Assembly: GCA_030526195.1 (NCBI GenBank)
Contig: JAUNDG010000006.1
Coordinates: 62,001-126,000, forward strand
From: Lachnospiraceae bacterium
GTDB taxonomy: Bacteria; Bacillota; Clostridia; Lachnospirales; Lachnospiraceae
DNA length: 64,000 nucleotides
Direction: 5' to 3'
Part shown: piece after piece, positions 49,486-64,000 of the stretch
Layout of the letters: each line of letters begins with the position of its first letter
How positions within the stretch are numbered: the stretch's first letter is position 1
The notes under the pieces: model-generated
Seen by the model: the letters and a program-made list of their open reading frames with translations, nothing else
Told to the model about the DNA's origin: nothing
Database searches by the model: none
Made by a program: the position numbers and the translations under genes

Positions 49486-52400
49486 TTATTTAGTTTTTCT
49501 CTTCCTGAATACCACTGCCATACCCAGCGCACTCACCAGCAGCATAGCGCCCCAAAGGAACGGCAGGCTGGCATCCCCGGTATTGGGGGTGCGATGCGTC
49601 GCATCACCCGGTGTGGGATTGGACGGCCCGTCTGTCGGTGTGGGCACCGGCGGATTCGGATTCGGCGTCGGTGTGGGCATCGGCGGATTCGGACCAGGTG
49701 TCGGTTCCGGTGTCGGCGGATTCGGGCCCGGCGTTGGTGTCGGCTCCGGTGTCGGAGTCGGTTCCGGTGTCGGGGTCGTTTGCGGTGTTGGCGTCGGTGT
49801 CGGTGTCGGGATGAGCGCCATATTAACGGCTGTCAGTTCCCAGGTATAGGGTGTGAATGATGTTTCATACATGACCTCATACCCCTCCGGCACCACATTT
49901 TCCCTTAAGGCGTAGATGTAAGGCAGACCATTTTCATCAAACCGGTCAAAACCTGTCAGGGTCTGAGTCCAACCATTTTCTTCAGAAAGCATCACCTCTT
50001 CATTAAGCGCCTCATCATTTCTTAAAATGGTCATGGTCACCGGCGCATGCTCTGTCTCTTCGGTATCATCCCATTCCTTCACAACACGCAGGTCAACGGT
50101 TTCCTTAAGATTTGTCTTGGTATTGGTCACCGTGAACCCGTCATAGGTTGTGGCATAACCGGCCACCGGCTGCTCCAGAATGTTGTAGGCGATGGTGTTT
50201 CCGGCCGCATTCTTGATCGGCACCGTCTTTGTGAGACTCCAGCTGTTTTCTTCACTGAGGGTAATTTCCTCAGAAATCTCGCCGTCGGCCAGGAGATACA
50301 CCGTCACAGACTCAGGTCTGGCATCAAGCGCTTTCTCATCGCCTGCCCAGGTCTTGGCAATGGTGATGTCCTGTGTCTCCGGTTCTACAGGCTGAACGTC
50401 CCGTTTGTTGGCAATGGTCAGCACCCAAAGCTTCTCATCAGCATCATAGGTGGCGCCGTAGGTAGCGGTGTAGCCGTCGATCGGTTCGATGGAGGCGCTG
50501 TAGCTGTAGGGATTGCCGTCGGCATCTTTTGCGGGGAACTGACCCGCATTTTTTTCCAGCCGATCCGGTGTCTCTAAATCGGTCAGCGTTGTCTCCATGG
50601 TTTCCGCAGCCGAACTCTGCTGAATATTGACATTCACCTTCTCCGGACGACCCTCATAACTATCATCGTCCCAGGTCACGATCAGCTGAACATCCACGTT
50701 TTCCTCTTCCGGTGTGCCCACGTAGGTGTTGGTGACATTCAAGCCGTCATAGGTGGTGGTGTATCCGGTCACGGCCTTTTCGACAACACTGTAGGAAATG
50801 GCCTCGCCGGATGCTGAGTATTTCGGCATCTGCAATTCTGACCAGCTCCAGTTATTGCCTGCATTTAAGACCACTGTCTGAATTGTGTCATTGTCAGCCT
50901 TCAGATCAACCTGAACAGACTCCGGTCTTGCGCCGGCAGCATCGTCACTATCCACCCAGGTCTTTGACACGTACAGATCGACCGTTTCCGGTTCATCCTC
51001 CTCAGCGGTATTGGTGATGGCCAGCGTCCAGGTGCGGCTTTCCGCATCAACCGCCGTTTCATAAGAGGCGGTGTAACCATCCGGCACCTCTTCGGTTACA
51101 GAATAGCTGTAAGCATTGCCCTCTCCGTCTCTCACCGGGTAGTCATTCAGCGTGGCCTCCCAGTTGTTGTCCGCCGACAGCGTCAGCGGATCGTCGATCG
51201 CCTTGGCATTTTGCCACAGCTGAACGGTGACAGCCTCATGTGAATCTTTCTTATCGACCCAGGTCTTCTTAATCTTGATGACCGCCTTATTGTCTGGCTT
51301 GCCGATATACGTATTGGTCACATCAAGCCCTTTATAAGAGGTGAGATAACCTTCGACCGGATCTTCCGTCACTGTATACGTGATGGTGTCGCCTGCGGCA
51401 TCCCGCTTGGGATATTCACCGCTCCAGCTCCAGTTATTGTCTTCCGAAAGCTCATAGACTTCCACGTCCTCATTGTTGGCTTTCAGATGCACGGTGACCT
51501 TTTCAGGTCTGGCCTCCGTCTTGTCGTCATCACCCACCCAGGTCTTCTTGCCTGAGAGTGTCTGCTCATTGTCATTGATCTTCTTGTTGACAGCCTCCAG
51601 CTCCCAGCCATCCGGAACTGATGTGACGGATGTGGTGACTTTGTAGCCCTCCGGCACATTATCTTCCCTCAGGGCGAAGGTATAAGCCTTATTGTTTTTA
51701 TCCTGCAGCTTACAGTGTGTCAGATTCGCTGCCCAATCGTTTTCCTTTGACAGTGTGACTTTCTGATAGGGCACATCATTTCTGAGAACTGTCAGGGTGA
51801 CGGCCTCATGATCGACCGGAGAGGACCAGGCCTCTTCTTTCCAGGTCTTTTTAATATGAAGTGTGCCTTCTTCAGTGCCGGTATAAGCATTGGTGATGTC
51901 ATAACCGTCGACAGACCCGTCATAGGCCGCCACCGGATCCTCGGTGATGGTATAGGTCTTGGTCAGGTCAACACCCTTATCCTCCGGACCGGCCCAGAAC
52001 CACTCCCATTCCGTCTCTGCGGAAATGTCGAGCTTGGCCACCTCATCGTCACCATCCCATATATGGATCGTGACCTTTTCGGGTCTTTCGCCGGCTTCAT
52101 TGTTATTGTCATCCCAGATGACTTTACCGCTGATCATCGCCGCCGTTGTCTTCACGGCATTGGTGACTTCCAGCGTTGCCCCGTCACTGTTGTTTGAAAT
52201 CCAGGCTGCACTCTTATTGTCATGAATCTCGATGCTTTCGGCACCGGGCGCTTTGACCGCCCATTCTGTTTCCGTCTTGCCATCAGCTGTCTTCAGGCAA
52301 TAGGTGACATCGTAGTCGGATTCATAGGTATCGGATGTCTCTTCAATAGCTGCATAGATATAGCCCGGCACAAGGTTCATCGCCTGCTGCCAGCCATTTT

Positions 52401-54051
52401 CTTCATTAAGAACGGCCACGAAGGCGGCGCGCTGCACATCTTTATCATCCAACCGGAGCGGCGCCATATTATCATCCATCAGGCTCTTGCCGCTGTAAAG
52501 CGGAATGAACTCAACAGAAACCTCGCTTCTCTGATCAGCCGGCACGCTCTCGTCCCAGATTTTCTTAACCGTCAGGGCCAGTGAACCGGTAGCGGTATTA
52601 TGAAGACTGTAAACCCCTGCGCTGTTCGCGGATTCCCGGACCTCGCGGGCATTATCCATAACCCGGGTCACCTTGCCGCCGCTGACCGTGACACTCCAGT
52701 TACCACCGGTATAACCTTCCGGTGTAACGGTTTCGGTCAGTGTCCAGACACCGTCTTCCATACCCTTGGCGGTGAACAGGCCGGTGCCCTTATCATAGGT
52801 CACAGCGACGGATTTGCCGCCTTTTTCCATGGTGAACTGTGCCCCGTCTTCACCGCCGGCGAAGAGTTCGAGGCCATTGTACAGATAGAAATCAAATTCG
52901 GATTCCTGAAGCACGATCTTAACCGTGATCTTCTTGCCGTTTGTGCTGCCATTTCTGAAATCGGAAATGCGGTTCGTCCGGCTCTTCTGGACGACACCGT
53001 CCACGGTCCAGATATAGGACGCCTGATAATGGTTGTCGCTGCCATCGGCTGTCAGCGTGTAGTTGATGGCATAGGTATCATCCTTAACCGGGAACAGGTT
53101 CCGGCTCTTCCAGCCATTTTCGGCGCAGAGAAGCCCCGTTGTGTTCTCAGACAATGACGCACCGCCGTCCTTCATCTCATACGTGATGGTTTCGATATCT
53201 TCAGGAAGGACGGTCACATCACCATTTTCATTATGATACTCGACCGTGACGTTGATCTCATCGCTGGCGGCACCGATATTATCCATGACGTAGCGATTTT
53301 TACCGTCGATCAGACCTTCGTAAATGATATTGCCGGCCTGACCGCTACGGCTCACGACTTCAAGAACGCCCTCGCCGTTGAGCTTCACATCCCAGGACGC
53401 CTGGATTTCCCGTAAGGCTTTCTGAGCAGACCCCACATCCGAACCAAAGACCTCTCTGACAAGACTTGTGAACGGGGTATTTCTTGACCCGTATTCCTTA
53501 TCCTGGATCAGAAGACCCTTCGTCTCATTGATGGTGTAAACGGCATTGAGGATAAACGGTTCACCGGTATAAACCAGCTCACCCGCTTCGTTAGCCTTGA
53601 TCGTCCCGACCTCGGTTTTGTTTCTGGTAACGGAGAATTCCGGATAATCTGTCAGATCATCAAACTTTGTCGTCCCGACACCATTGGGCAGAACGCCATA
53701 TACCGATTTGGCAAAGACCCAACTTTCGGAAAGCGTATCCGGCGTGATATAAAGATCGGCATAAATATTGCCCTTTTTCATCGTGACGCGAGACTGCTGC
53801 TGATAGGTATACCCTTCATCCGCATCATTGACTTTGATCTTCTGCGCCGTACAGAACAGACCAAACACACCGGTAGCGCCCACCGGCGGCACCATTTCCA
53901 CGGTGTCATTCGTCGGCAGGGTCAGCTGACGCGGTTCAGCCCCTTCCTGATAAGACACGGAAACCGGAATGCTGGCCGGGATCTTCGCCATATCAAAGCC
54001 TTCCGGCCAATGCACTGTGGCATAGAACTTACCGGGTGTATCAAGCGTCAT
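49486..54051 (-). CDS. Cna-B repeat surface protein, C-terminal part, with sorting signal (split gene)
   Basis: 1521 residues from the first ATG after an in-frame TAG. No signal peptide and no ribosome binding site precede this ATG, while the frame is continuous with the gene at 54082-55059. Residues 1-480 are beta-rich, with a SpaA-like domain near 375-470. Nine Cna-B domains follow, at about 487, 634, 728, 829, 922, 1023, 1117, 1226 and 1317. Each has a KKTW-like first strand with the isopeptide Lys, a TEDPV-like Glu strand and a TNTY-like Asn strand. A Pro/Thr-rich wall spacer (1411-1480; TPTPTP, PEPTP) leads to an LPxTG-type signal TPNTGD, a membrane helix and the tail RKRKTK. A stalk-like adhesin displayed by sortase is likely. 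It is functional only if the TAG is bypassed. Confidence 0.88.
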   Translation of the reverse strand: MTLDTPGKFYATVHWPEGFDMAKIPASIPVSVSYQEGAEPRQLTLPTNDTVEMVPPVGATGVFGLFCTAQKIKVNDADEGYTYQQQSRVTMKKGNIYADLYITPDTLSESWVFAKSVYGVLPNGVGTTKFDDLTDYPEFSVTRNKTEVGTIKANEAGELVYTGEPFILNAVYTINETKGLLIQDKEYGSRNTPFTSLVREVFGSDVGSAQKALREIQASWDVKLNGEGVLEVVSRSGQAGNIIYEGLIDGKNRYVMDNIGAASDEINVTVEYHNENGDVTVLPEDIETITYEMKDGGASLSENTTGLLCAENGWKSRNLFPVKDDTYAINYTLTADGSDNHYQASYIWTVDGVVQKSRTNRISDFRNGSTNGKKITVKIVLQESEFDFYLYNGLELFAGGEDGAQFTMEKGGKSVAVTYDKGTGLFTAKGMEDGVWTLTETVTPEGYTGGNWSVTVSGGKVTRVMDNAREVRESANSAGVYSLHNTATGSLALTVKKIWDESVPADQRSEVSVEFIPLYSGKSLMDDNMAPLRLDDKDVQRAAFVAVLNEENGWQQAMNLVPGYIYAAIEETSDTYESDYDVTYCLKTADGKTETEWAVKAPGAESIEIHDNKSAAWISNNSDGATLEVTNAVKTTAAMISGKVIWDDNNNEAGERPEKVTIHIWDGDDEVAKLDISAETEWEWFWAGPEDKGVDLTKTYTITEDPVAAYDGSVDGYDITNAYTGTEEGTLHIKKTWKEEAWSSPVDHEAVTLTVLRNDVPYQKVTLSKENDWAANLTHCKLQDKNNKAYTFALREDNVPEGYKVTTSVTSVPDGWELEAVNKKINDNEQTLSGKKTWVGDDDKTEARPEKVTVHLKANNEDVEVYELSEDNNWSWSGEYPKRDAAGDTITYTVTEDPVEGYLTSYKGLDVTNTYIGKPDNKAVIKIKKTWVDKKDSHEAVTVQLWQNAKAIDDPLTLSADNNWEATLNDYPVRDGEGNAYSYSVTEEVPDGYTASYETAVDAESRTWTLAITNTAEEDEPETVDLYVSKTWVDSDDAAGARPESVQVDLKADNDTIQTVVLNAGNNWSWSELQMPKYSASGEAISYSVVEKAVTGYTTTYDGLNVTNTYVGTPEEENVDVQLIVTWDDDSYEGRPEKVNVNIQQSSAAETMETTLTDLETPDRLEKNAGQFPAKDADGNPYSYSASIEPIDGYTATYGATYDADEKLWVLTIANKRDVQPVEPETQDITIAKTWAGDEKALDARPESVTVYLLADGEISEEITLSEENSWSLTKTVPIKNAAGNTIAYNILEQPVAGYATTYDGFTVTNTKTNLKETVDLRVVKEWDDTEETEHAPVTMTILRNDEALNEEVMLSEENGWTQTLTGFDRFDENGLPYIYALRENVVPEGYEVMYETSFTPYTWELTAVNMALIPTPTPTPTPQTTPTPEPTPTPEPTPTPGPNPPTPEPTPGPNPPMPTPTPNPNPPVPTPTDGPSNPTPGDATHRTPNTGDASLPFLWGAMLLVSALGMAVVFRKRKTK

Positions 54052-54081
54052 GGCGATCAGATGGTTATCCGTGGCAGAATA

Positions 54082-54084
54082 CTA
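54082..54084 (-). other. In-frame TAG splitting the Cna-B surface protein
   Basis: The minus strand reads ...CTG AAA AGT TAG TAT TCT GCC..., and the next 1531 codons are open in the same frame. The protein reading is KLKS-stop-YSATDNHL. TAG also ends ftsE and the NRPS reductase gene, so it is a normal stop in this genome. A nonsense mutation, sequencing error, programmed readthrough or two separate genes are the options. Confidence 0.85.
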
Positions 54085-55059
54085 ACTTTTCAGTTTCAGT
54101 GTTTTGCCGTAAGCCGCCGCGATCTGAACCCGTGTCTGATCATTGGTGGCAGAATCCCTGGTTTCGTCATTTGACTGCCGCTCATTCGGCACACCGGTCA
54201 GAATAAACTCCGGTTCTGCGCCGGCCTGCATCGCCCCGATAATCTGATAATTACCGGTCGGGATTCTCATGCCGGGATTGTAGCGATAAGCGCCTTCCGC
54301 CCCTGATTCGGCATAAAGCGGAAAGGTTTGCTTTGTGTCCTTATTATAAAGGGACATCTCCATCTGATAGTACGGAGCCTCGATCGTCACATTGGCGGTT
54401 TTTCTGTCAAGACGATTCTCGATGTAATAGAACGTATCGCCGGGTGAATACCAGGAAAACTCTTCCGTGCGGAATTCAAAGGACTTGTCCTTTTCCTTAA
54501 CAACCGGCACACCACTCTTGACAAATTCGCCGGCCACCGTGAAGGCCTGGCCCCCCGGAATAAAAGACACACCAAAAAGAATGACTTTCATGCAGCGGCT
54601 CAGCCATTTCGGGGCACCGGCAAAATCACGGTCTATGTCGAGCACCAGATGTCTGGAGCCGTACATATTGTAATCATCCGGCACAAACTTGGCCCGGGCG
54701 TCAAAATAAGCCGACGGCACAGGCGTATACGAGACATGCGGAAATGTCGTGACACCATACTGGTTCGTCGTCTGGGTTTTGTCATAATTGCTGGCCATCA
54801 TATTATAACGATAGCCACGATACGTGACCCCCTGAATCGGTTCCCCCGTGATGCTGTCGATCGCCAGCACGTTAATGTTATAGTGGAAAGAATCCGTCGC
54901 TTTCGGTGACCATCTTTCCATGTGCTGCGTATAACTTGATGCGAAAACAGCCACAGAATTGAACATAAAGCAGACGACCAGCAAAATAGCGATCATCGAC
55001 TTCATCAATCTGCGTCTTCTTCCGCGCAGGTTCTGACGTTTTGAATCACACGTCTTCAT
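54082..55059 (-). CDS. Cna-B surface protein, N-terminal part, with signal peptide (split gene)
   Basis: 325 residues with GGGAGATTTACT before the ATG. A basic N region (RGRRRRLMK) and a hydrophobic stretch (SMIAILLVVCFMFNSVAVFA, about 20-41) form a signal peptide. The mature part has a prealbumin-like module (VLAIDSITGEPIQGVTYRG...TTNQYGVTTFPHVSY) and a second beta module (VTIEAPYYQMEMSLYNKDTKQTFPLYAES...PTGNYQIIG). It has no wall anchor of its own. It ends in a TAG that is in frame with the 1521-residue C-terminal part. Together they would make a secreted, sorted protein of about 1857 residues. As read here it would be released as a soluble fragment. Confidence 0.85.
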   Translation of the reverse strand: MKTCDSKRQNLRGRRRRLMKSMIAILLVVCFMFNSVAVFASSYTQHMERWSPKATDSFHYNINVLAIDSITGEPIQGVTYRGYRYNMMASNYDKTQTTNQYGVTTFPHVSYTPVPSAYFDARAKFVPDDYNMYGSRHLVLDIDRDFAGAPKWLSRCMKVILFGVSFIPGGQAFTVAGEFVKSGVPVVKEKDKSFEFRTEEFSWYSPGDTFYYIENRLDRKTANVTIEAPYYQMEMSLYNKDTKQTFPLYAESGAEGAYRYNPGMRIPTGNYQIIGAMQAGAEPEFILTGVPNERQSNDETRDSATNDQTRVQIAAAYGKTLKLKS

Positions 55060-56530: not shown

Positions 56531-56570
56531 GAAAAAACCCGAAAACCATTGGTTTACGGGTTTTTTCTTT
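56531..56570 (-). terminator. Strong terminator after the NRPS/partner-switch operon, probably bidirectional
   Basis: AAAAAACCCG-A-AAACC pairs with GGTTT-A-CGGGTTTTTT around ATT; T-runs on both exits. Confidence 0.9.
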
Positions 56571-56586
56571 CGGAATTATTATAACA

Positions 56587-56645
56587 CTATCGGCAATATA
56601 TAACACCATTTCGTCATTCGGAATGATATTATATATTGCCGATAG
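56587..56645. repeat. 17-base perfect inverted repeat
   Basis: CTATCGGCAATATATAA at 56587-56603 and its exact reverse complement at 56629-56645, 25 bases apart. It lies just downstream of the STAS gene and upstream of the terminator. No similar sequence was noticed elsewhere in the window. Confidence 0.75.
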
Positions 56646-56760
56646 AATAATAACTGCAGCCTCCTTCAGATTCCATCGAACCTGCTCCGCTTTGCCTTTT
56701 TCTGTTTTGTATGTTTCCGTTATATTTACGCCCGGTTTATCGGACAAACAGTTTATGTCT

Positions 56761-57051
56761 TTATGAAATGCTGATCTTTTTATCCAGTCCTATCATCTCA
56801 AAGACCGACTTGATTGACGGACTGACATTGATGATAGAAAATGTCCCTTCCGGCTGTCTTAAAACCACGGAAACAATCTCACGTATACCGGATGATGATA
56901 TATACTCCAGATTCTGAAAATCCATCACCAGCTTTTCCTGAACAGGAATCTCGCTCATAAACGCCGCAAATTCCTTGTTTGACTGGATATCAAGCCACCC
57001 CTCCACCTTCACGATCATTGTCTTGTCTGTCAACTCTTTTGTCACTTTCAT
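56761..57051 (-). CDS. STAS-domain anti-sigma factor antagonist (SpoIIAA/RsbV-like)
   Basis: 96 residues, single STAS domain: MIVKVEGWLDIQSNKEFAAFM, then LVMDFQNLEYISSSGIREIVSVV with the serine that is phosphorylated in SpoIIAA and RsbV (within ISSSG, about S57-59). The C-terminal FSIINVSPSIKSVFEMIGLDK is typical. Its start overlaps the end of the phosphatase gene (ATGA), so the two are made together. It should be phosphorylated by an RsbW-like ATPase and dephosphorylated by the PP2C domain next door. The downstream partner is not a visible sigma factor. Confidence 0.9.
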   Translation of the reverse strand: MKVTKELTDKTMIVKVEGWLDIQSNKEFAAFMSEIPVQEKLVMDFQNLEYISSSGIREIVSVVLRQPEGTFSIINVSPSIKSVFEMIGLDKKISIS

Positions 57052-58967
57052 GATTGGTTCCTTTCAGCCGCATCAAAGCTTTTTTCGATGCGGAAAATGT
57101 TTTTGCCATCGTGATGATCATAATGAATCTTATCCGCTATGCCGGATATAAGGATCCGTCCTGCCCCGCCTATCTGAGCCGTCGGGTCGTAACCGATTTT
57201 ATAGTCAGAGGACACCGCCTGATTATAGGGCTTCCCGCTGTCGATAAATGTAATCTGACACTTATTATCGTCTGATTCAATATCAACTTCAACCATATTG
57301 TCATCAGAAGGCGTATCTTCATAGGCATAAGACACGATATTGACCATGATTTCTTCCGCTGCAAGGCACAACCCCAGCTTTTCTGTCGTCTCTATCCATG
57401 GGATGCCATAAATGTATGAACGTACCGTCTCCCAGCTTTCGATCTTTGCCGGAAGGCTGAAAACCTTTCTGTTTTCAAAAGTCATCGTCAGGAGCGTCAC
57501 ATCATCTGTAACCTCTTTTCCGGCTAAAAACTCTTTAAGATCTGAAGAGATCTGATTGATAACAGCCGGACCATTTCTATGACTTAACAGGCAGGCCTTC
57601 AGACGTTCTTCGCCATACATGTCTTTATTTTCATTGAAGGCCTCTGTCAGTCCGTCGGTATACAGAACCAACGTATCCCCCGGCGAAAGGCTGACCGTTT
57701 CACTTGTGTACACCTCTCCCGGAAAGATACCAAGCAAAAGCCCTCCGGCTCCATTAAGTGCTTTTAATTCTTTTCCGATCAAAAATGGCTTGTTATGACC
57801 CCCGTTTGCATAGGTTAAGACGCCGGTCTTTTTGTTAAAAACCGCTGCAAACAGTGTCACAAAGAGTCTTTCAGGATTGATGCCCGCCAGGTCATTATTG
57901 ACCTCTGCCAGAACTCTGGCGGGGTCCTTGTACCACATAGCATTATTTCTCAGGGAAATACAGGCACTCGACATAAGCATCGCGGCTGATACCCCGTGAC
58001 CGGACACATCGCCCACCGCCAGAAATACCCGGTCATCATCAATATCAAAATACTGATAAAGATCTCCCCCGACCGCATCCATCATTTTCAGACTGGCCTT
58101 GATCGTGACATAGGCTCCGGTGTACGCCGGAGGCGGCAGCATACCGTTCTGGATTTTTCTGGCAATATCCAGCTCAGCCTCCCGGGCCGTACTGTTTCGG
58201 GTTATGTTTTCAACATCAGAGATGCCCTGTGCCAGCTCCGGTGAGAACTCTCCGATACTCCCTGTCACCGTTGTCATCGCCTTTTCACTTATGGCGCCCT
58301 TTTCTTTAATACCGGCCAGCAGCTGACCGGCCCTTCTCACAGGAGAGACGACCTTTAAGTAAAACATCACACTGATCAGTATGGCAAATATGACAAGGGC
58401 TTCAAAGATCCTTATGACATACTTGGCAATCTCACTCAGCATGGCCCTCATGTACAGATTTTGTTTTACCTGTATTTCCACGAGACCAACCCAGTTGTCA
58501 TCTGACAGGGGCACAAGATAGGCATAAGCCTCATTCTTATCATTTACAGAAAATGGCATTGTCACAGCCTCGCCGTTTACCAGTGCCGCCTCTTCTTTCA
58601 ACAGATTGGCGAAGGACTCGCTATCGGTTTGGTCGACCGTGTTGCGATTCACCTTTAACACGTATATATTGTCCGGTTTGTTTTTATTGACATACTTGAT
58701 CTGTATTTCATCAACACTGGACTCGCAGAGCTTACGCAGATAATTGACGCTGTTGAGAAGATTGGTTTCCACCAATTCTCCTGATGGCGTATTGAAAAAA
58801 GCCCGGCAGTACTCTGAAAGGACCTCCACGGTGAATTCAACATCCTCCTGGATCTTTGCCCTCATATCATCCCACTCGCGAAAAGACAGATAGGCTGTGA
58901 TTCCGATGATAATGATCAGCAAAACGACCACCATCTGTCCGATCATATTCTTAAAAAGCTTTTTCAT
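57048..58967 (-). CDS. Membrane SpoIIE-type PP2C phosphatase fused to RsbW-like ATPase domain
   Basis: 639 residues. Membrane helix about 9-27, extracytoplasmic sensor region about 28-180, second helix about 185-210. The linker is followed by a PP2C/SpoIIE domain (about 290-490) with GGDLYQYF, AVGDVSGHGVSAAMLMS and LVLYTDGLTEAFNE. The C terminus (about 505-630) is a GHKL ATPase of the RsbW/SpoIIAB kind with LCLAAEEIMVNIVSYAYED (N box) and GGAGRILISG. Both the kinase-like and the phosphatase activities that act on STAS proteins are thus in one chain. It starts 4 bases after the NRPS stop and overlaps the STAS gene, so it belongs to the NRPS operon. It likely turns an outside signal into the STAS phosphorylation state. 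Confidence 0.92.
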   Translation of the reverse strand: MKKLFKNMIGQMVVVLLIIIIGITAYLSFREWDDMRAKIQEDVEFTVEVLSEYCRAFFNTPSGELVETNLLNSVNYLRKLCESSVDEIQIKYVNKNKPDNIYVLKVNRNTVDQTDSESFANLLKEEAALVNGEAVTMPFSVNDKNEAYAYLVPLSDDNWVGLVEIQVKQNLYMRAMLSEIAKYVIRIFEALVIFAILISVMFYLKVVSPVRRAGQLLAGIKEKGAISEKAMTTVTGSIGEFSPELAQGISDVENITRNSTAREAELDIARKIQNGMLPPPAYTGAYVTIKASLKMMDAVGGDLYQYFDIDDDRVFLAVGDVSGHGVSAAMLMSSACISLRNNAMWYKDPARVLAEVNNDLAGINPERLFVTLFAAVFNKKTGVLTYANGGHNKPFLIGKELKALNGAGGLLLGIFPGEVYTSETVSLSPGDTLVLYTDGLTEAFNENKDMYGEERLKACLLSHRNGPAVINQISSDLKEFLAGKEVTDDVTLLTMTFENRKVFSLPAKIESWETVRSYIYGIPWIETTEKLGLCLAAEEIMVNIVSYAYEDTPSDDNMVEVDIESDDNKCQITFIDSGKPYNQAVSSDYKIGYDPTAQIGGAGRILISGIADKIHYDHHDGKNIFRIEKSFDAAERNQS

Positions 58968-58971
58968 ATCT

Positions 58972-61900
58972 TTACAGGAACTCCGTCAGTTTTGGCACGA
59001 TGATATCAAGGGACTCGCTATCCATCATGAGGTCATGTTCATGAGGGGTCATGACGATCGTCAGCTTATCCGCATCGATAAAGTTCTCATATCCGCCGGC
59101 TTTTTTCGCCAGAATGGCTTCCTGATAGGCAAGAGCAGCTCCTGATGCCCCCTCCGGCACAACCTTGGGTTTAAAGTAAAGCACCCTGCCATGATAGTGT
59201 GACGGTGTGTAATCCACCACGTCCATGGCTAAATGGGTGTAATTTGAGATAAGGGTCTCAAGCATACCCTTAACGCGCATATCCTCAAATAAAGGACTTG
59301 TCTCGAAGTACTCACGCTTCACCGTCTGCTGATTATCGTAGGACAGTTTTTTCATGTGCTCGCCTACAGCAGCCTGGGAGTCTAAAAGAACAAGGCTCTC
59401 TACCGCCTCGCCCTCCTGCTCTAAAAGACAGGCCATCTCATAGGCCAGCATACCGCCATAACACCAGCCCCCCAGTCTATAGGGGCCTTCCGGCTGGTAC
59501 TCCCGTAATATCTCCAGGTACTTTTTCGCAAGATTCTTTATGCCATAGACCTCGTGGCCCGGGTGATAAATATTGTACTGCTCCATAACGGCAAATGAGT
59601 ATGTGGACTCAATCTGCTTTGCCAGATTATAGTAAGCCTCACTGCCTGTATTGGCCGTGTGGACAAATATCAGTTTTTTGCCGCCTTCCACATCTGAGTA
59701 AGTAAAGATCGGAGCCTCCGGGGCATCTTGTCTTTCTCTGAGTTTCCCCAGGTATGACCCGTCAGCTTCTTTGGTCCGAAGAACCCGGTCCTCTTCCCCT
59801 ATCCCCATCGACAGAAGTTCTATCCATGTTGGAATCTCAAGGGAATCCGGGTAATCATTCAAAAGTTCTGTAAACAGTTCCGAGATATACCATCTGAGTC
59901 TGATATTATCGAGAAGCAGACGTCTGACACTGGTGAGAATCAGGCATTTTCCGTCATCAATATTAATACAGGCCACCCGGAGCTGTGCTTCCGTTTGAAG
60001 ATCAAAGCTAAAGGCACTGTTTTTCTGTCTGAACGCCAGAGCCAAAGCCTGCGCCTCATCGTGATCTGCCGCCCGGCAAACCTGAAGGGGTATCTGTCGA
60101 TCTGTCACCACCTGCTGGATCGCACTGACACCTTTGTAAATGACGGAAGCTCGCAGGCACTCGAATCTTTGGCTCACCTTATCAAGAGCCTTGCGGACAT
60201 CCCGCTCCCTGACATGACAATCAATAAGGAAAGAATGAGCCTGCACCTGCCCCGGGTCATCCGGGTAAAGCAGCTGATTCATCAGCATCATTTCCTGATC
60301 ACCGGTAAGGGGCAGGACCTTCAGGATCTTCTCACCTCTGGCAGAAAAACTATCCTGAAGCCGTTGCCACTCATCGTCTTCCCAGATCTTTTCATACTCA
60401 ACACTTGCCCTTTGACAAAGCTCTGCCACATTTTTCGTCTGAAGGATATCACTGCTGGAAATAATGATCCCTCTTTGTCTCAGTCTTGATGACAAAGACA
60501 TGGCCGACAGAGAGTCTCCCCCCATATTTAAAAAGCTGTCATTAAGACCGATTCTTTCTATCTTAAGAAGTTCTTCAAGGTTCTTAACGATCATGGCCTG
60601 GACATCGTTTGCCGGCGCCACGTAGTCCGTTTGCTCAATGTCAGGTACCGGAAGCTCACGTCTGACAATCTTGCCATTTGCATTTCTGGGCAGGGCATCA
60701 ATGGCAATCCAAAGATCCGGCATCATGTAATGAGCCAGTTCTTTTGAAATCTTTGCTTTTATACCTTCCGCGTCAAAGCTCTGCCCATTTTCATAAAAAC
60801 AGCACAGCTTATCGGCTCCGCGCACCTTTCTGACCACGCAGGCAAAGTTTTTTCCGCCGGCCTTTGCTATGCAGCTCTCCACCTCTCCCAGTTCAACGCG
60901 AAAGCCACGCAGCTTGACCATGTCATCAGCGCGGCCCACATAACGGAACAGGCCGTCTTCATCCTCGCGCATACGGTCACCGGTTTTATAGTAGCGTTTA
61001 CCGTTGAGGCTTATCCATTTTTTACGGGTTTCCTCCGGCAGGTGAAGATAGCCTTTAGCCATAAAACCTGAGCTGTATAAAAGCTCCCCGATTTCACCGC
61101 ATTTTACCTGTTCCAGATTCTCATCAACAAGAAGAACCTCTGTGCCGGGAGTCGGATGACCAATCGGAATATCCTCTTCACCGCCGCTTAGCTTATAGCC
61201 AAATACGTTAACACCTTCTGTGCTTCCATAAACATTCATAATATGGGGACGGCCTATGGCCTTGACAGGCCTCATCTTTTCACCGCCAAAGAGCAGCGTC
61301 ACATCGCCGATATCATAGCGCTCAAGCAGCAATACCCCAAGGGAGGGCGGCAGGAAAAGGTGGCTGATCTTCTCCTTTTTCAGTGTTCGGTACAGGCCAT
61401 CCAGGTCAGTTCTTAGCATTTCTGAAATGATATGGCTGCTACCGCCTTCAAATACCGGTGTCAGCAGACAAAGCGCACTGGCGATAAAGGTAAAGCCGGA
61501 AAAGACAGCAAATCGACACCCTTCAGAAGCCGGGGGCATAGTAACCGGAAATGAACGCGTCATCGCGCTGATCGACCCGTGGGTGTGGATAACCCCCTTC
61601 GGTTTACCCGTTGTGCCTGACGTATAAAGGAGCATGGCATGGCTGTCAGCCTTTATCGCCTCTTCTGCCGCAAGGAGTCCACCTTTGCCCTCGTCCGGCA
61701 AAGCATCCGCTGCCAAAGCATCTGCGGCTGCTTCATCCAAAAATACAACCTCGCCCTTAAAGCCCGGTACAGGTTTTTTCTCCCAAAGCTTTGACACGGT
61801 CAGAATAAAGCCGCAGTCAGCATCCTCTATGATGTAGAGTATCCGATCATCCGGATACTCTGCATCGATCGGGATATAAGCACCGCCTGCTTTTAAAACA

Positions 61901-62112
61901 GAAAGAGCCCCTGCCAGAATGTCATAGGTTCTTGGCACATAGACAGCAGCAAAGTCTTCTGCCTTTAAGCCTTTTTGAAGTAAATGCCATGCCACCTTGT
62001 CAGTTATGCGATCCAGTTCACCGTAACTTATAACGGTATCCTTATCGGACACGGCTGTTTCAAAAGGTATCTCTTTTGACCATTTTCTAAAAACACTGAC
62101 AATGTTACTCAT
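58972..62112 (-). CDS. NRPS: adenylation-PCP-degenerate condensation-thioesterase
   Basis: 1046 residues, no starter C domain. The adenylation domain (1-500) has LLYTSGTTGKPKGV (A3), NVYGSTEG (A5), YKTGDR (A7), GRADDMVKLRGFRVELGE (A8) and NGKIVRREL (A10 Lys). In the A4 region the Asp that binds the alpha-amino group is replaced: GFTFIAS instead of the usual FDxS type. So the substrate may not be a standard alpha-amino acid. PCP about 515-590 (FLNMGGDSLSAM, phosphopantetheine Ser). Condensation-like domain about 600-790, whose HHxxxDG site reads RRLLLDN, so it is probably not catalytic. Thioesterase about 810-1046 with GWCYGG (Cys in the nucleophile position) and a C-terminal His in PHEHDLM. 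It follows the reductase NRPS and precedes the phosphatase by 4 bases. Confidence 0.9.
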   Translation of the reverse strand: MSNIVSVFRKWSKEIPFETAVSDKDTVISYGELDRITDKVAWHLLQKGLKAEDFAAVYVPRTYDILAGALSVLKAGGAYIPIDAEYPDDRILYIIEDADCGFILTVSKLWEKKPVPGFKGEVVFLDEAAADALAADALPDEGKGGLLAAEEAIKADSHAMLLYTSGTTGKPKGVIHTHGSISAMTRSFPVTMPPASEGCRFAVFSGFTFIASALCLLTPVFEGGSSHIISEMLRTDLDGLYRTLKKEKISHLFLPPSLGVLLLERYDIGDVTLLFGGEKMRPVKAIGRPHIMNVYGSTEGVNVFGYKLSGGEEDIPIGHPTPGTEVLLVDENLEQVKCGEIGELLYSSGFMAKGYLHLPEETRKKWISLNGKRYYKTGDRMREDEDGLFRYVGRADDMVKLRGFRVELGEVESCIAKAGGKNFACVVRKVRGADKLCCFYENGQSFDAEGIKAKISKELAHYMMPDLWIAIDALPRNANGKIVRRELPVPDIEQTDYVAPANDVQAMIVKNLEELLKIERIGLNDSFLNMGGDSLSAMSLSSRLRQRGIIISSSDILQTKNVAELCQRASVEYEKIWEDDEWQRLQDSFSARGEKILKVLPLTGDQEMMLMNQLLYPDDPGQVQAHSFLIDCHVRERDVRKALDKVSQRFECLRASVIYKGVSAIQQVVTDRQIPLQVCRAADHDEAQALALAFRQKNSAFSFDLQTEAQLRVACINIDDGKCLILTSVRRLLLDNIRLRWYISELFTELLNDYPDSLEIPTWIELLSMGIGEEDRVLRTKEADGSYLGKLRERQDAPEAPIFTYSDVEGGKKLIFVHTANTGSEAYYNLAKQIESTYSFAVMEQYNIYHPGHEVYGIKNLAKKYLEILREYQPEGPYRLGGWCYGGMLAYEMACLLEQEGEAVESLVLLDSQAAVGEHMKKLSYDNQQTVKREYFETSPLFEDMRVKGMLETLISNYTHLAMDVVDYTPSHYHGRVLYFKPKVVPEGASGAALAYQEAILAKKAGGYENFIDADKLTIVMTPHEHDLMMDSESLDIIVPKLTEFL

Positions 62113-62152
62113 CGCATTTACTCTCTTCTCTATTATTTCTTAGTTTCTGTCA

Positions 62153-62218
62153 GGAAAGCGGACACTCGCTTAAGACTCTGCGTCTTTGAAGCGGGGGAAT
62201 GCTTGCTACGGTTCAAAA
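62153..62218 (+). repeat. R2/R1 repeat between the two NRPS genes
   Basis: R2 left arm AAAGCGGACACTCGC joined to a full R1 hairpin and tail (CTTAAGACTCTGCGTCTTTG...GCTACGGTTCAAA). The TAG stop of the upstream NRPS gene (62208-62206) lies in the R1 tail, so the repeat supplies its last codons. Confidence 0.75.
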
Positions 62219-64000
62219 AATCCAAGTTTTTTCAGTTTTTCTGCAAAGCATGTCACATAGTCATCGCCTGTGGTCAGCCATCTGAAGCCCATGCTGTAAA
62301 GGGCCTGTGTCGTGAGGCTGTTATCGATACTATCCGGGCCAAGAAGTCTTATATTGGAGCTTCCCGGATTGTACATCACAAGCTCGCTGGCATATTTCAT
62401 CAGCTCGGGATCCTTCTGGGCTTCTTTGATTCTTGCGGCAAATGCCTCTGACGATACCACCCCGATCGGGTTGTCGTCATCAGCAAGAGCCATCACTATG
62501 TCACCATATCTCACCAGCCTGTTATTGGATGCTGCAAAGCAGACACATGCCTTTGGCATCTTAGCCAGCAGATAGACCGCATGAGCCACATCCTCGATAG
62601 GTGAAAACTCAACCAGACCATCCATCGTCAGGTACGGCAGAATGCCAAGTTTCTCAGACGGATCATACGGGATCACGCCCAACTTACGATAAGACTTCAG
62701 GCAGTTCATAAAGCTGTTTGTCGCGTAGTTCAACTGGAACTGACCGTCACGTCTCGGTGCCAGGTTACCCACACGGATAACACGGCCATTGAGACCTCTA
62801 TCCAGAATCGCCTCGTAGATTGCTCTTTCCGCCAGGAATTTCGATCTGGTATACCGATTGCTTTCATAATCCTGACCGACATAAAGGACATTTTCTGTAA
62901 ATGAGAAGCTTGCCGGCGGGACCTGACCCACGGCGTTACCCATGACACTCTCCGTTGATATATGGACCAGCCGTGAATCGTGCGCCAGACACCAGTCGAT
63001 CATGTCCAGAACGGCATCATAGTTGGCCTTCTCGATATCATTTGTTCTTGAGAAATGCTTAACGTTTGCTGAGCAGTTGATAACGGTCAGACCATTTTCG
63101 GTAATCTGGCCAAGGGCCGCTTTATCGATCTCACTGCAAGCGTAAACCTCTACACGGCCTTCAAAAGCCGCTTTGGCATCGGTATAGAAGTACTTTTGAT
63201 AATAGTCTTCCAGACGCTCTTTGGCCGACATATCCTTGCCGGGTCTTACAAGGCATGTGATTTTCCCTGTGCCGCTTGTCAGAAGCTCACGCAGCATATG
63301 GATGCCTAAGTATCCTGTGGCACCAAAGAGGAGCACATCGCCCACATCCTGAGCCTCCCCGTTCTTTATGACATCAAGGGTATTCTGCCGAAGCAGGGCA
63401 TTGATCCTTGTGTAATCATAGCCGTCGCGATCGATTTCCACTGTGTGCGGCCCATAATATGACCCGTCACAGGCTGCTCCGTCTGATGCTTCACCAGCCG
63501 GATCTGTTTCACCTTCACCTGAGAACATAGCGGCCAGCTCTGTCGGTACCGGATGATCAAAGAGATTCTGGTAAACAATATGGTAGCCCAGATTTTCAGC
63601 TTCAGTCACGACCTTCATGGCCGCAATAGAGCTGCCGCCAATGTCAAAGAAGTTATCCTCGGCACTGACCTTTTCTAAATCCAGAACCTCGCCAAATATC
63701 TGACAGAAGTCCTGTTCTGCCTTTGTTTTCGGCTCAACATAGCCCTTCTTCTTTGCCTCAGGCTTTGGCAGAGCCTTTCTGTCAACCTTCTGATTGACGG
63801 TAAGCGGGATAGCCTCCAGCTGCATGATCACAGCCGGCACCATGTAGGCCGGTTTGCGAGACTTGATAAAGTCTGCCAGTTCTTCTGCCGAAAGCTCACC
63901 ATCATATACCACAAATGCAGCCAGATACTTGCCGCCGCTTTCATAGTCATAGGGCTGTACGGTGGTGTCCCTGACACCGGGGAAGTCTCTGATCACAGTC
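62206..64000 (-). CDS. NRPS with terminal thioester reductase domain (N-terminal part outside window)
   Basis: About 598 codons in the window; the frame stays open to the edge, so adenylation and any condensation domains lie beyond it. Visible order: end of an adenylation domain with the A10 motif NQKVDRKALP, a PCP (DNFFDIGGSSIAAMKVV, about 120), and a reductase domain (about 215-596) with NAD(P)H motif LLFGATGYLGIHMLREL. The catalytic Tyr/Lys of the SDR type are in NRYTRSKFLAER. Such R domains release the peptide as an aldehyde or alcohol. In gut Clostridia, NRPSs of this kind make dipeptide aldehydes and pyrazinones. The stop codon TAG is supplied by a repeat. Confidence 0.92.
   Translation of the reverse strand, partial: TVIRDFPGVRDTTVQPYDYESGGKYLAAFVVYDGELSAEELADFIKSRKPAYMVPAVIMQLEAIPLTVNQKVDRKALPKPEAKKKGYVEPKTKAEQDFCQIFGEVLDLEKVSAEDNFFDIGGSSIAAMKVVTEAENLGYHIVYQNLFDHPVPTELAAMFSGEGETDPAGEASDGAACDGSYYGPHTVEIDRDGYDYTRINALLRQNTLDVIKNGEAQDVGDVLLFGATGYLGIHMLRELLTSGTGKITCLVRPGKDMSAKERLEDYYQKYFYTDAKAAFEGRVEVYACSEIDKAALGQITENGLTVINCSANVKHFSRTNDIEKANYDAVLDMIDWCLAHDSRLVHISTESVMGNAVGQVPPASFSFTENVLYVGQDYESNRYTRSKFLAERAIYEAILDRGLNGRVIRVGNLAPRRDGQFQLNYATNSFMNCLKSYRKLGVIPYDPSEKLGILPYLTMDGLVEFSPIEDVAHAVYLLAKMPKACVCFAASNNRLVRYGDIVMALADDDNPIGVVSSEAFAARIKEAQKDPELMKYASELVMYNPGSSNIRLLGPDSIDNSLTTQALYSMGFRWLTTGDDYVTCFAEKLKKLGFFEP

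Follow-up and report, generated by a model that had tools for sequence, protein, structure and literature searches.

The best-known role of partner switches is the control of sigma factors. The underlying reaction, in which a SpoIIE-type phosphatase acts on a STAS protein, is described in the available part of PMC11418112, and according to the corresponding portion of PMC8457831 the SiaABCD system of Pseudomonas aeruginosa has a diguanylate cyclase under the direct control of a STAS-like protein. As far as the accessible sections of two further papers go, NRPS clusters for peptide aldehydes are a common feature of Lachnospiraceae (PMC11170972) and have also been described from Ruminococcus bromii (PMC12327764). 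Here, we describe an operon from a 64-kb stretch of Lachnospiraceae DNA (hereafter, the window) in which NRPS genes stand together with the parts of a partner switch. We put the probability at about one half that this switch acts, without a sigma factor, on the synthesis or the export of the peptide.

Layout and limits of the operon

All four genes of the operon within the window lie on one strand, and the spacing given for them in the initial annotation was confirmed: 93 bases between NRPS1 and NRPS2, 4 bases between NRPS2 and the SpoIIE gene, and an overlap of 4 bases between the SpoIIE and STAS genes (Table 1). The terminator at which the operon had been proposed to end was likewise found, both in the sequence and by folding, as a hairpin about 190 bases past the STAS stop codon. 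It adjoins a palindrome, and its T-run is part of the terminator stem; the 141-base piece that holds the palindrome and the terminator hairpins has a fold z of -9.25. The pattern scan did not list this hairpin, and Rfam gave no match within the window. In the pattern scan, no minus-strand promoter-like site appeared between positions 58967 and 62112; overall, the scan reported 15 promoter-like sites, a number not clearly higher than the 10.6 (sd 3.0) obtained in shuffles.

Table 1. Positions of the operon's features within the window.
Feature	Position	Strand	Description and basis
End of NRPS1	62206-64000	-	Runs off the window; within it, end of the A domain, carrier and thioester-reductase domain
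NRPS2, 1046 aa	58972-62112	-	A-T-truncated C-TE (AMP-binding, carrier, partial condensation, thioesterase)
Membrane SpoIIE/PP2C phosphatase with C-terminal RsbW-like HATPase_c_2 (kinase) domain, 639 aa	57048-58967	-	Pfam, motifs, fold match
Single-domain STAS protein, 96 aa	56761-57051	-	Serine at the phosphoacceptor position (ISSSG)
Near-perfect palindrome, 24-bp stem, in the 3' untranslated region	56587-56645	-	Fold
Hairpin terminator of the operon	56531-56567	-	Read from the sequence, and fold

The contig extends 6.6 kb beyond the window and carries, upstream of NRPS1 and overlapping it by 4 bases, a PPTase gene. Upstream of this gene there is a terminator-like site and, 332 bases from the gene's start, the end of the contig. 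Read over its full length on the contig, NRPS1 has the domain order C-A-T-C-A-T-R. An NRPS that ends in a reductase domain probably yields an aldehyde or an alcohol. Since NRPS1 has such a domain at its C-terminus (PF07993, 94.5 and 91.1 bits), which places it among the reductase-ending peptide NRPSs, its predicted product is probably one of the two. The first C domain of NRPS1 holds an in-frame TAA in this assembly, at a position outside the window; elsewhere in the operon the frames are open, and their domains were matched. Were this stop real, the locus might be decaying, with NRPS1 a pseudogene and a switch that has no current function here. We consider such decay highly improbable, given those open frames and a single stop that may be an assembly error or may leave a shorter start.

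Switch proteins and sigma genes

Domains and motifs bear out the earlier proposal that the partner-switching module is complete, comprising a phosphatase, a kinase domain and a STAS protein with its serine. The SpoIIE domain of the membrane protein matched PF07228 with 162 bits, in keeping with the phosphatase of an RsbU/RsbW/RsbV-type module; its HATPase domain matched PF13581 with 53 bits and, by alignment, has the N-box, G1 and G2 of the kinase. A model predicts an N-terminal membrane helix and an outside region for this protein. Its best fold match was Rv1364c RsbU-RsbW (3ke6), and RssB, SiaA and SpoIIE were also matched. The column of the STAS phosphoacceptor was serine in 85 of 85 distinct aligned STAS domains, as it is in the STAS protein of the operon; a loose pattern had given S in 51 of 75, which we took to reflect a mis-set position and replaced by the alignment count. 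Used as a single query, the SpoIIE protein retrieved no relative from the genome contigs, and from plasmid records it retrieved phosphatases alone, all less than 60% identical and with less than 80% of the query covered.

All three parts match the RsbU/RsbW/RsbV families, and the genome has a further operon of a SpoIIE gene, a free HATPase and a STAS gene on another contig (C26). Both findings would suit a classical switch in which STAS releases a sigma factor whose gene lies elsewhere, so that the switch governs transcription, be it of the operon or of other genes. This is unlikely in our view. One Pfam search (E 0.001) of the 96% complete assembly found just two sigma-70 region-2 genes, a frame of 395 aa (RpoD-size) and one of 223 aa with region 2 and region 4 matches, which we take to be SigH-like. 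Both lie on contigs other than that of the operon, on which no sigma-70 region-2 gene was found; this agrees with the absence stated in the initial annotation. Moreover, a classical switch does not account for the link to NRPS genes or for the fusions of switch parts with MATE, PPTase and A domains that are described below.

Switch genes and fusions at other NRPS loci

A neighborhood search revealed that switch and NRPS genes are also associated in other genomes, belonging to several genera and with differing gene orders. The survey comprised 65 NRPS loci from 49 genomes of the same family, the window locus included, defined by condensation-domain frames of at least 900 aa among the matches listed; shorter single-domain condensation frames, mostly of 460-505 aa, were left out. 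Among these matches, a STAS gene occurred within 10 kb at 8 of the 65 loci (7 of 64 without our own locus) against 1.1 expected, a Pfam-based count that does not depend on the custom profiles, which were trained on some of the surveyed loci. A STAS, SpoIIE or HATPase part was present at 14 of the 65 loci among the matches listed and absent from 51. The reductase NRPS loci account for most of these (13 of 30, versus 1 of 35 other loci; own locus included, matches listed, Fisher P 1.1e-4). At nine of the 65 loci, again among the matches listed, a MATE exporter was fused to an RsbW-like HATPase. The association of STAS and other switch genes with NRPS genes exceeds chance, and the pattern is recurrent. 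It could still be a matter of neighborhood only, with an accidentally co-transcribed switch that regulates something unrelated, such as a second-messenger enzyme (compare SiaC). The 51 loci devoid of switch parts would fit this, as would the action of SiaABCD on a diguanylate cyclase, described in the available part of PMC8457831, but recurrence in several genera with differing gene orders makes it very unlikely.

In the closest relative, which belongs to another genus (G121), the order SpoIIE-PPTase-NRPS1-NRPS2 is kept, and the NRPS2 relative (58.65% identical) adjoins that of NRPS1. The SpoIIE protein of this genome is without a HATPase domain. A single STAS gene was detected there, on a different contig and next to a free HATPase; no STAS gene was seen beside the NRPS genes, on a contig that stops 26 bases past the NRPS2 match. 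At a locus from the same genus as the source genome (L071), an NRPS2 relative, a STAS gene and a condensation domain are consecutive, which puts the STAS gene between two NRPS genes, and the scan of named genomes found STAS genes directly after an NRPS gene at other loci.

Seven MatE+HATPase_c_2 proteins encoded beside NRPS genes were scanned with Pfam, and the HATPase domain was above cut-off in six. The named-genome scan employed a profile from a 4-row MATE-HATPase alignment, an 11-row version being too diverse for the collection. Of the 38 MATE-HATPase loci that it detected, 36 have NRPS and 23 have STAS genes (32 and 21 of 34, respectively, without the four seeds); its NRPS share is biased because the profile was built on NRPS-linked proteins and the seed contigs are among the 38 loci, and the counts of the 65-locus survey are the less biased figures. 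All measurable pairs (29 of 29) were on the same strand. MATE-HATPases also occur without NRPS genes nearby. A structure model of one MATE-HATPase combines the MATE fold with a separate alpha/beta C-terminal domain. The G2 motif GGxG is present in 30 of 30 SpoIIE-fused and 25 of 35 other HATPases but in none of 70 MATE-fused ones; having lost this box of active kinases, the MATE-fused domain looks like a docking domain for STAS.

Other fusions were found as well: PPTase-STAS and adenylation-HATPase, each at one locus and beside a SpoIIE gene, the latter with a HATPase below the Pfam cut-off, and furthermore STAS-APH and STAS-APH-HATPase. The fusions are facts of the sequence, and the wiring read from them is our interpretation. 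A further reading, which we consider unlikely, is that the biosynthetic enzymes themselves (PPTase, an adenylation or a condensation domain) are the targets of the STAS protein, which would switch the assembly line instead of an exporter. The PPTase and adenylation fusions, the STAS genes lying between or directly after NRPS genes, and an operon without a MATE gene point in this direction; against it stand the single loci and the sub-threshold HATPase of these fusions, and the far greater number of MATE-HATPase fusions.

The source genome itself encodes five MATE-HATPases, all outside the operon. One is followed by a STAS gene, and three had no switch gene in the flanking stretch examined. From the operon to the end of its contig there is no MATE-HATPase gene, which sets it apart from the MATE-HATPase-linked NRPS clusters. 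The idea that contig C29 continues into the MATE-HATPase with which contig C11 begins was dropped, given the terminator-like site upstream of the PPTase gene and a C29 end that shares no end word of at least 16 bases with the C11 stretch.

Possible wiring and known systems

The earlier suggestion that the pathway or its export, and not a sigma factor, is the target of the switch gained indirect support from the recurring association, the fusions of kinase-type domains to MATE exporters near the NRPS genes of relatives, and the finding of two sigma-70 region-2 genes. From the observed gene content and order, recurrence, fusions, motif loss and small number of sigma factors, we infer the following phosphorylation chemistry, STAS binding and export control. 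The operon would make a small peptide and carry its own sigma-free partner switch. A single membrane chain, in which a SpoIIE-type phosphatase and an RsbW-like kinase domain are joined to an outward region, would determine whether the STAS serine is phosphorylated, and unphosphorylated STAS would bind a second partner of the pathway, either HATPase-type or an enzyme. In sister clusters, the likely receiver would be the HATPase-like domain fused to the MATE exporter encoded beside the NRPS, serving as the docking domain through which STAS gates export. The receiver in the source genome may be one of the five MATE-HATPases encoded elsewhere, or the NRPS or PPTase itself.

More tentatively, such sigma-free switching could be widespread in Clostridia: the STAS receiver would be a pseudo-kinase HATPase attached to a MATE exporter or, rarely, to an adenylation enzyme, and the phosphorylation of one serine would gate the synthesis or the export of peptides made by NRPSs. 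The operon described here would then be a variant with the kinase on the phosphatase. Partner-switch parts do recur with, and fused to, peptide natural-product enzymes and exporters in Clostridia. If the wiring holds true, release of NRPS peptides would be set by a fast phosphorylation switch.

A literature search that largely covered papers outside subscription returned, among the matches listed, no paper on NRPS with SpoIIE or STAS and none on MATE-HATPase fusions. The MATE exporters ClbM, WgkD and SolL, linked to their products by name, resemble the MATE-HATPases by MATE fold or model match, but the matches listed name no HATPase domain in any of the three. The Rv1364c chain also holds PAS and STAS domains. 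It unites phosphatase and kinase domain in one chain (PDB 3ke6), as does the window protein, which differs in being membrane-bound and in having a separate STAS protein. With SiaABCD, the window operon shares a SiaA-type phosphatase (SiaA-PP2C is among its fold matches, and the NCBIfam SiaA model is far below cut-off); the kinase SiaB is a separate protein, and the available part of PMC8457831 mentions neither an NRPS nor an exporter. Similarly, the accessible sections on gut reductase-ending NRPS clusters (dipeptide aldehydes, ruminopeptin) make no mention of a partner switch (PMC11170972, PMC12327764). RsbU-RsbW-RsbV and SpoIIE-SpoIIAB-SpoIIAA consist of the same three parts as the module in the window. 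In contrast to these systems, the window module has no adjoining sigma gene, its kinase is fused to the phosphatase, it shares its operon with NRPS and PPTase genes, and the relatives of this operon possess exporter-fused HATPases.

Organization of the NRPS and partner-switch operon

The operon lies on a contig of 132,603 bases (genome size 2.54 Mb) and reads on the minus strand, 5' to 3', as a PPTase gene, NRPS1, NRPS2, a SpoIIE-HATPase_c_2 gene and a STAS gene. NRPS1 starts with GTG, in a four-base overlap with the PPTase stop codon. The gene spacing given in the initial annotation proved exact, and its claim that the operon ends at a terminator was borne out by a hairpin terminator, which was not among the sites from our pattern scan and which lies downstream of a palindrome with a 24-bp stem. 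This near-perfect palindrome follows the STAS gene and precedes the terminator, has a fold stability far above that of shuffled sequences, and is possibly a small mobile element or an RNA end. In this assembly, an in-frame TAA falls within the first C domain of NRPS1; it represents either an assembly error or a real interruption. In our reading of the sequence, HHxxxDG, the motif of such domains, is lost from the remnant C domain of NRPS2. Elsewhere in the window lie genes for a surface protein of 1521 aa, in which Cna_B was matched eight times, and for a neighbour of 325 aa without a Pfam match.

Positions of the operon genes and other features (L004, stretch of the window's own contig, C29; other L numbers, further stretches of DNA analysed)
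Feature	Position	Strand	Remarks
PPTase gene	L004 15639-16271	-	first in operon; outside window
NRPS1		-	C-A-T-C-A-T-R; mostly outside window
In-frame TAA of NRPS1	C29 131373-131375 (L004 15373-15375)		outside window
NRPS2		-	A-T-truncated C-TE
SpoIIE phosphatase		-	membrane protein; HATPase_c_2 domain at C-terminus
STAS protein		-	last gene of operon
Palindrome	window 56577-56654		
Surface protein and neighbour	window 49486-55059		
Tandem SpoIIE locus	L128 4279-14855	one strand	
Cas-like sequences	L182 1227-2201 and 2907-4650		own contig C5
STAS-APH-type fusions	L162, L163, L164, L165, L170, L042, L240		HATPase also in L042, L240

Switch genes at other NRPS loci

A separate survey seeded by condensation domains, for which we took every frame of at least 900 aa among the matches listed, comprised 65 loci from 49 genomes, the window's own locus counted. 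Of the 126 Pfam STAS positions in these genomes, some fell within 10 kb of 8 of the 65 NRPS loci, compared with 1.1 loci expected (simulated P 1.5e-5); leaving out the own locus gives 7 of 64. Using local profiles, STAS, SpoIIE or HATPase parts were detected at 13 of 30 reductase-containing loci versus 1 of 35 others (Fisher P 1.1e-4), the latter being L063, which is cut by a contig end, and none of these parts at 51 of the 65 loci. The association noted initially for a single operon recurs in other genomes.

Relatives of the SpoIIE protein (E 1e-10) were present in 99 of 299 genomes searched from the same family. This family is very probably Lachnospiraceae, since some contigs of its genomes have sequence in common with named Lachnospiraceae records (L198 with G056:C38, L194 with G157:C92, L218 with G168:C18). 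Outside the own genome, the top match comes from a genome of another genus (G121); its gene lies immediately 5' of PPTase-NRPS1-NRPS2, whose NRPSs are 58-59% identical, and the protein is without a HATPase domain. The single STAS gene found in G121 adjoins a free HATPase gene on a different contig; the NRPS contig stops 26 bases past the NRPS2 match. Among 42 genomes of the window's own genus, one locus (L071) carries an NRPS2 relative followed by a STAS gene and a condensation-domain frame, and three (L088, L089, L090) combine HATPase or SpoIIE parts with NRPS genes. On one strand of L128 we observed two tandem SpoIIE genes, a PPTase gene, an A-C-A-R NRPS gene and a gene for a free RsbW-like kinase.

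Fusion of switch domains to exporters and enzymes

Beside these NRPS genes, at 9 of the 65 surveyed loci, lie genes for proteins of about 590 aa that combine a MATE exporter with a HATPase_c_2 domain at the C-terminus. Seven were scanned with Pfam, and the HATPase exceeded the cut-off in six; no NCBIfam model reached a cut-off in the three proteins scanned. An AlphaFold model of one (mean pLDDT 83) shows a helical part resembling MATE and, apart from it, an alpha/beta domain at the C-terminus. Its 50 fold matches listed were all MATE and related flippase folds, and the HATPase assignment therefore rests on Pfam. At six loci (L127, L130, L133, L143, L145, L147), MATE proteins (567-598 aa) encoded close to NRPS genes carry a C-terminal extension missed by the HATPase profile, perhaps a further eroded form of the domain.

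A named-genome scan with four MATE-HATPase seeds, biased since the seeds were NRPS-linked, yielded 38 loci, with NRPS domains at 36, STAS at 23, SpoIIE at 8 and PPTase at 10; without the four seed contigs, NRPS domains remained at 32 of 34 and STAS at 21 of 34. Fusion and NRPS genes share a strand in all 29 measurable loci. Full-length MATE-HATPases also occur in further families of the class. At 12 of 14 loci from other genomes (three of the same family), the stretch examined contained genes for SpoIIE, STAS or a separate HATPase, at two of these 12 about 5 kb away; NRPS genes were found at two of the 14. Five MATE-HATPase genes are present in the own genome. A STAS gene comes after one of them, a second SpoIIE-HATPase-STAS operon is found about 4.5 kb from another, and the stretches examined around the remaining three contained no switch gene. 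Upstream of the MATE-HATPase-STAS locus, an adenine-deaminase-like start runs into what we take to be Cas9-like HNH sequence, followed by a presumed Cas2-like gene and a repeat array, possibly through misassembly or rearrangement.

Switch domains are joined to other proteins as well. A PPTase-STAS fusion (L069) and an adenylation-HATPase fusion (L055; HATPase at 21.0 bits, below the cut-off of 27.4) both adjoin SpoIIE genes. Seven proteins join STAS to an APH-type kinase domain, one of them continuing into a HATPase, and L240 encodes a STAS-APH-HATPase protein; several of these genes adjoin SpoIIE or MATE-HATPase genes. These fusions show that switch domains are attached to enzymes, not to sigma factors.

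Kinase motifs and the proposed target of the switch

The AlphaFold model of the window's SpoIIE-HATPase (mean pLDDT 71) is fairly confident in its PP2C and HATPase parts and poor in its membrane/sensor part; its best fold match is Rv1364c. SpoIIE-fused HATPases, the window protein among them, keep the N, G1 and G2 boxes. The N-box was found in 46 and G1 in 47 of 56 MATE-fused domains. The G2 GGxG motif is absent from all 70 MATE-fused domains, in which the pre-G2 segment is also shorter, and present in 30/30 SpoIIE-fused and 25/35 other HATPases. All 85 distinct STAS domains aligned have a serine in the phosphoacceptor column, placed on the assumption that the site corresponds to that of SpoIIAA. 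The motif pattern, together with this serine, suggests that HATPases on the phosphatase or free would be the active kinases, and the exporter-fused domain a docking type.

A search at E 0.001 gave only two genes with sigma-70 region 2 in the own genome; their frames measure 395 and 223 aa, and the 223-aa frame matches region 4 as well. The initial observation of NRPS genes joined to a partner switch is confirmed, and the association extends to fused exporters; the best-supported reading of these sequences is that the switch would act on peptide synthesis or export. None of the papers listed in the literature searches described NRPS genes with a SpoIIE/STAS switch or a MATE-HATPase fusion. Clusters for dipeptide aldehydes rank among the most abundant of those known from Lachnospiraceae (PMC11170972). 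Switches free of sigma factors are known: in SiaABCD, a diguanylate cyclase is the direct target of the STAS-like protein (PMC8457831).
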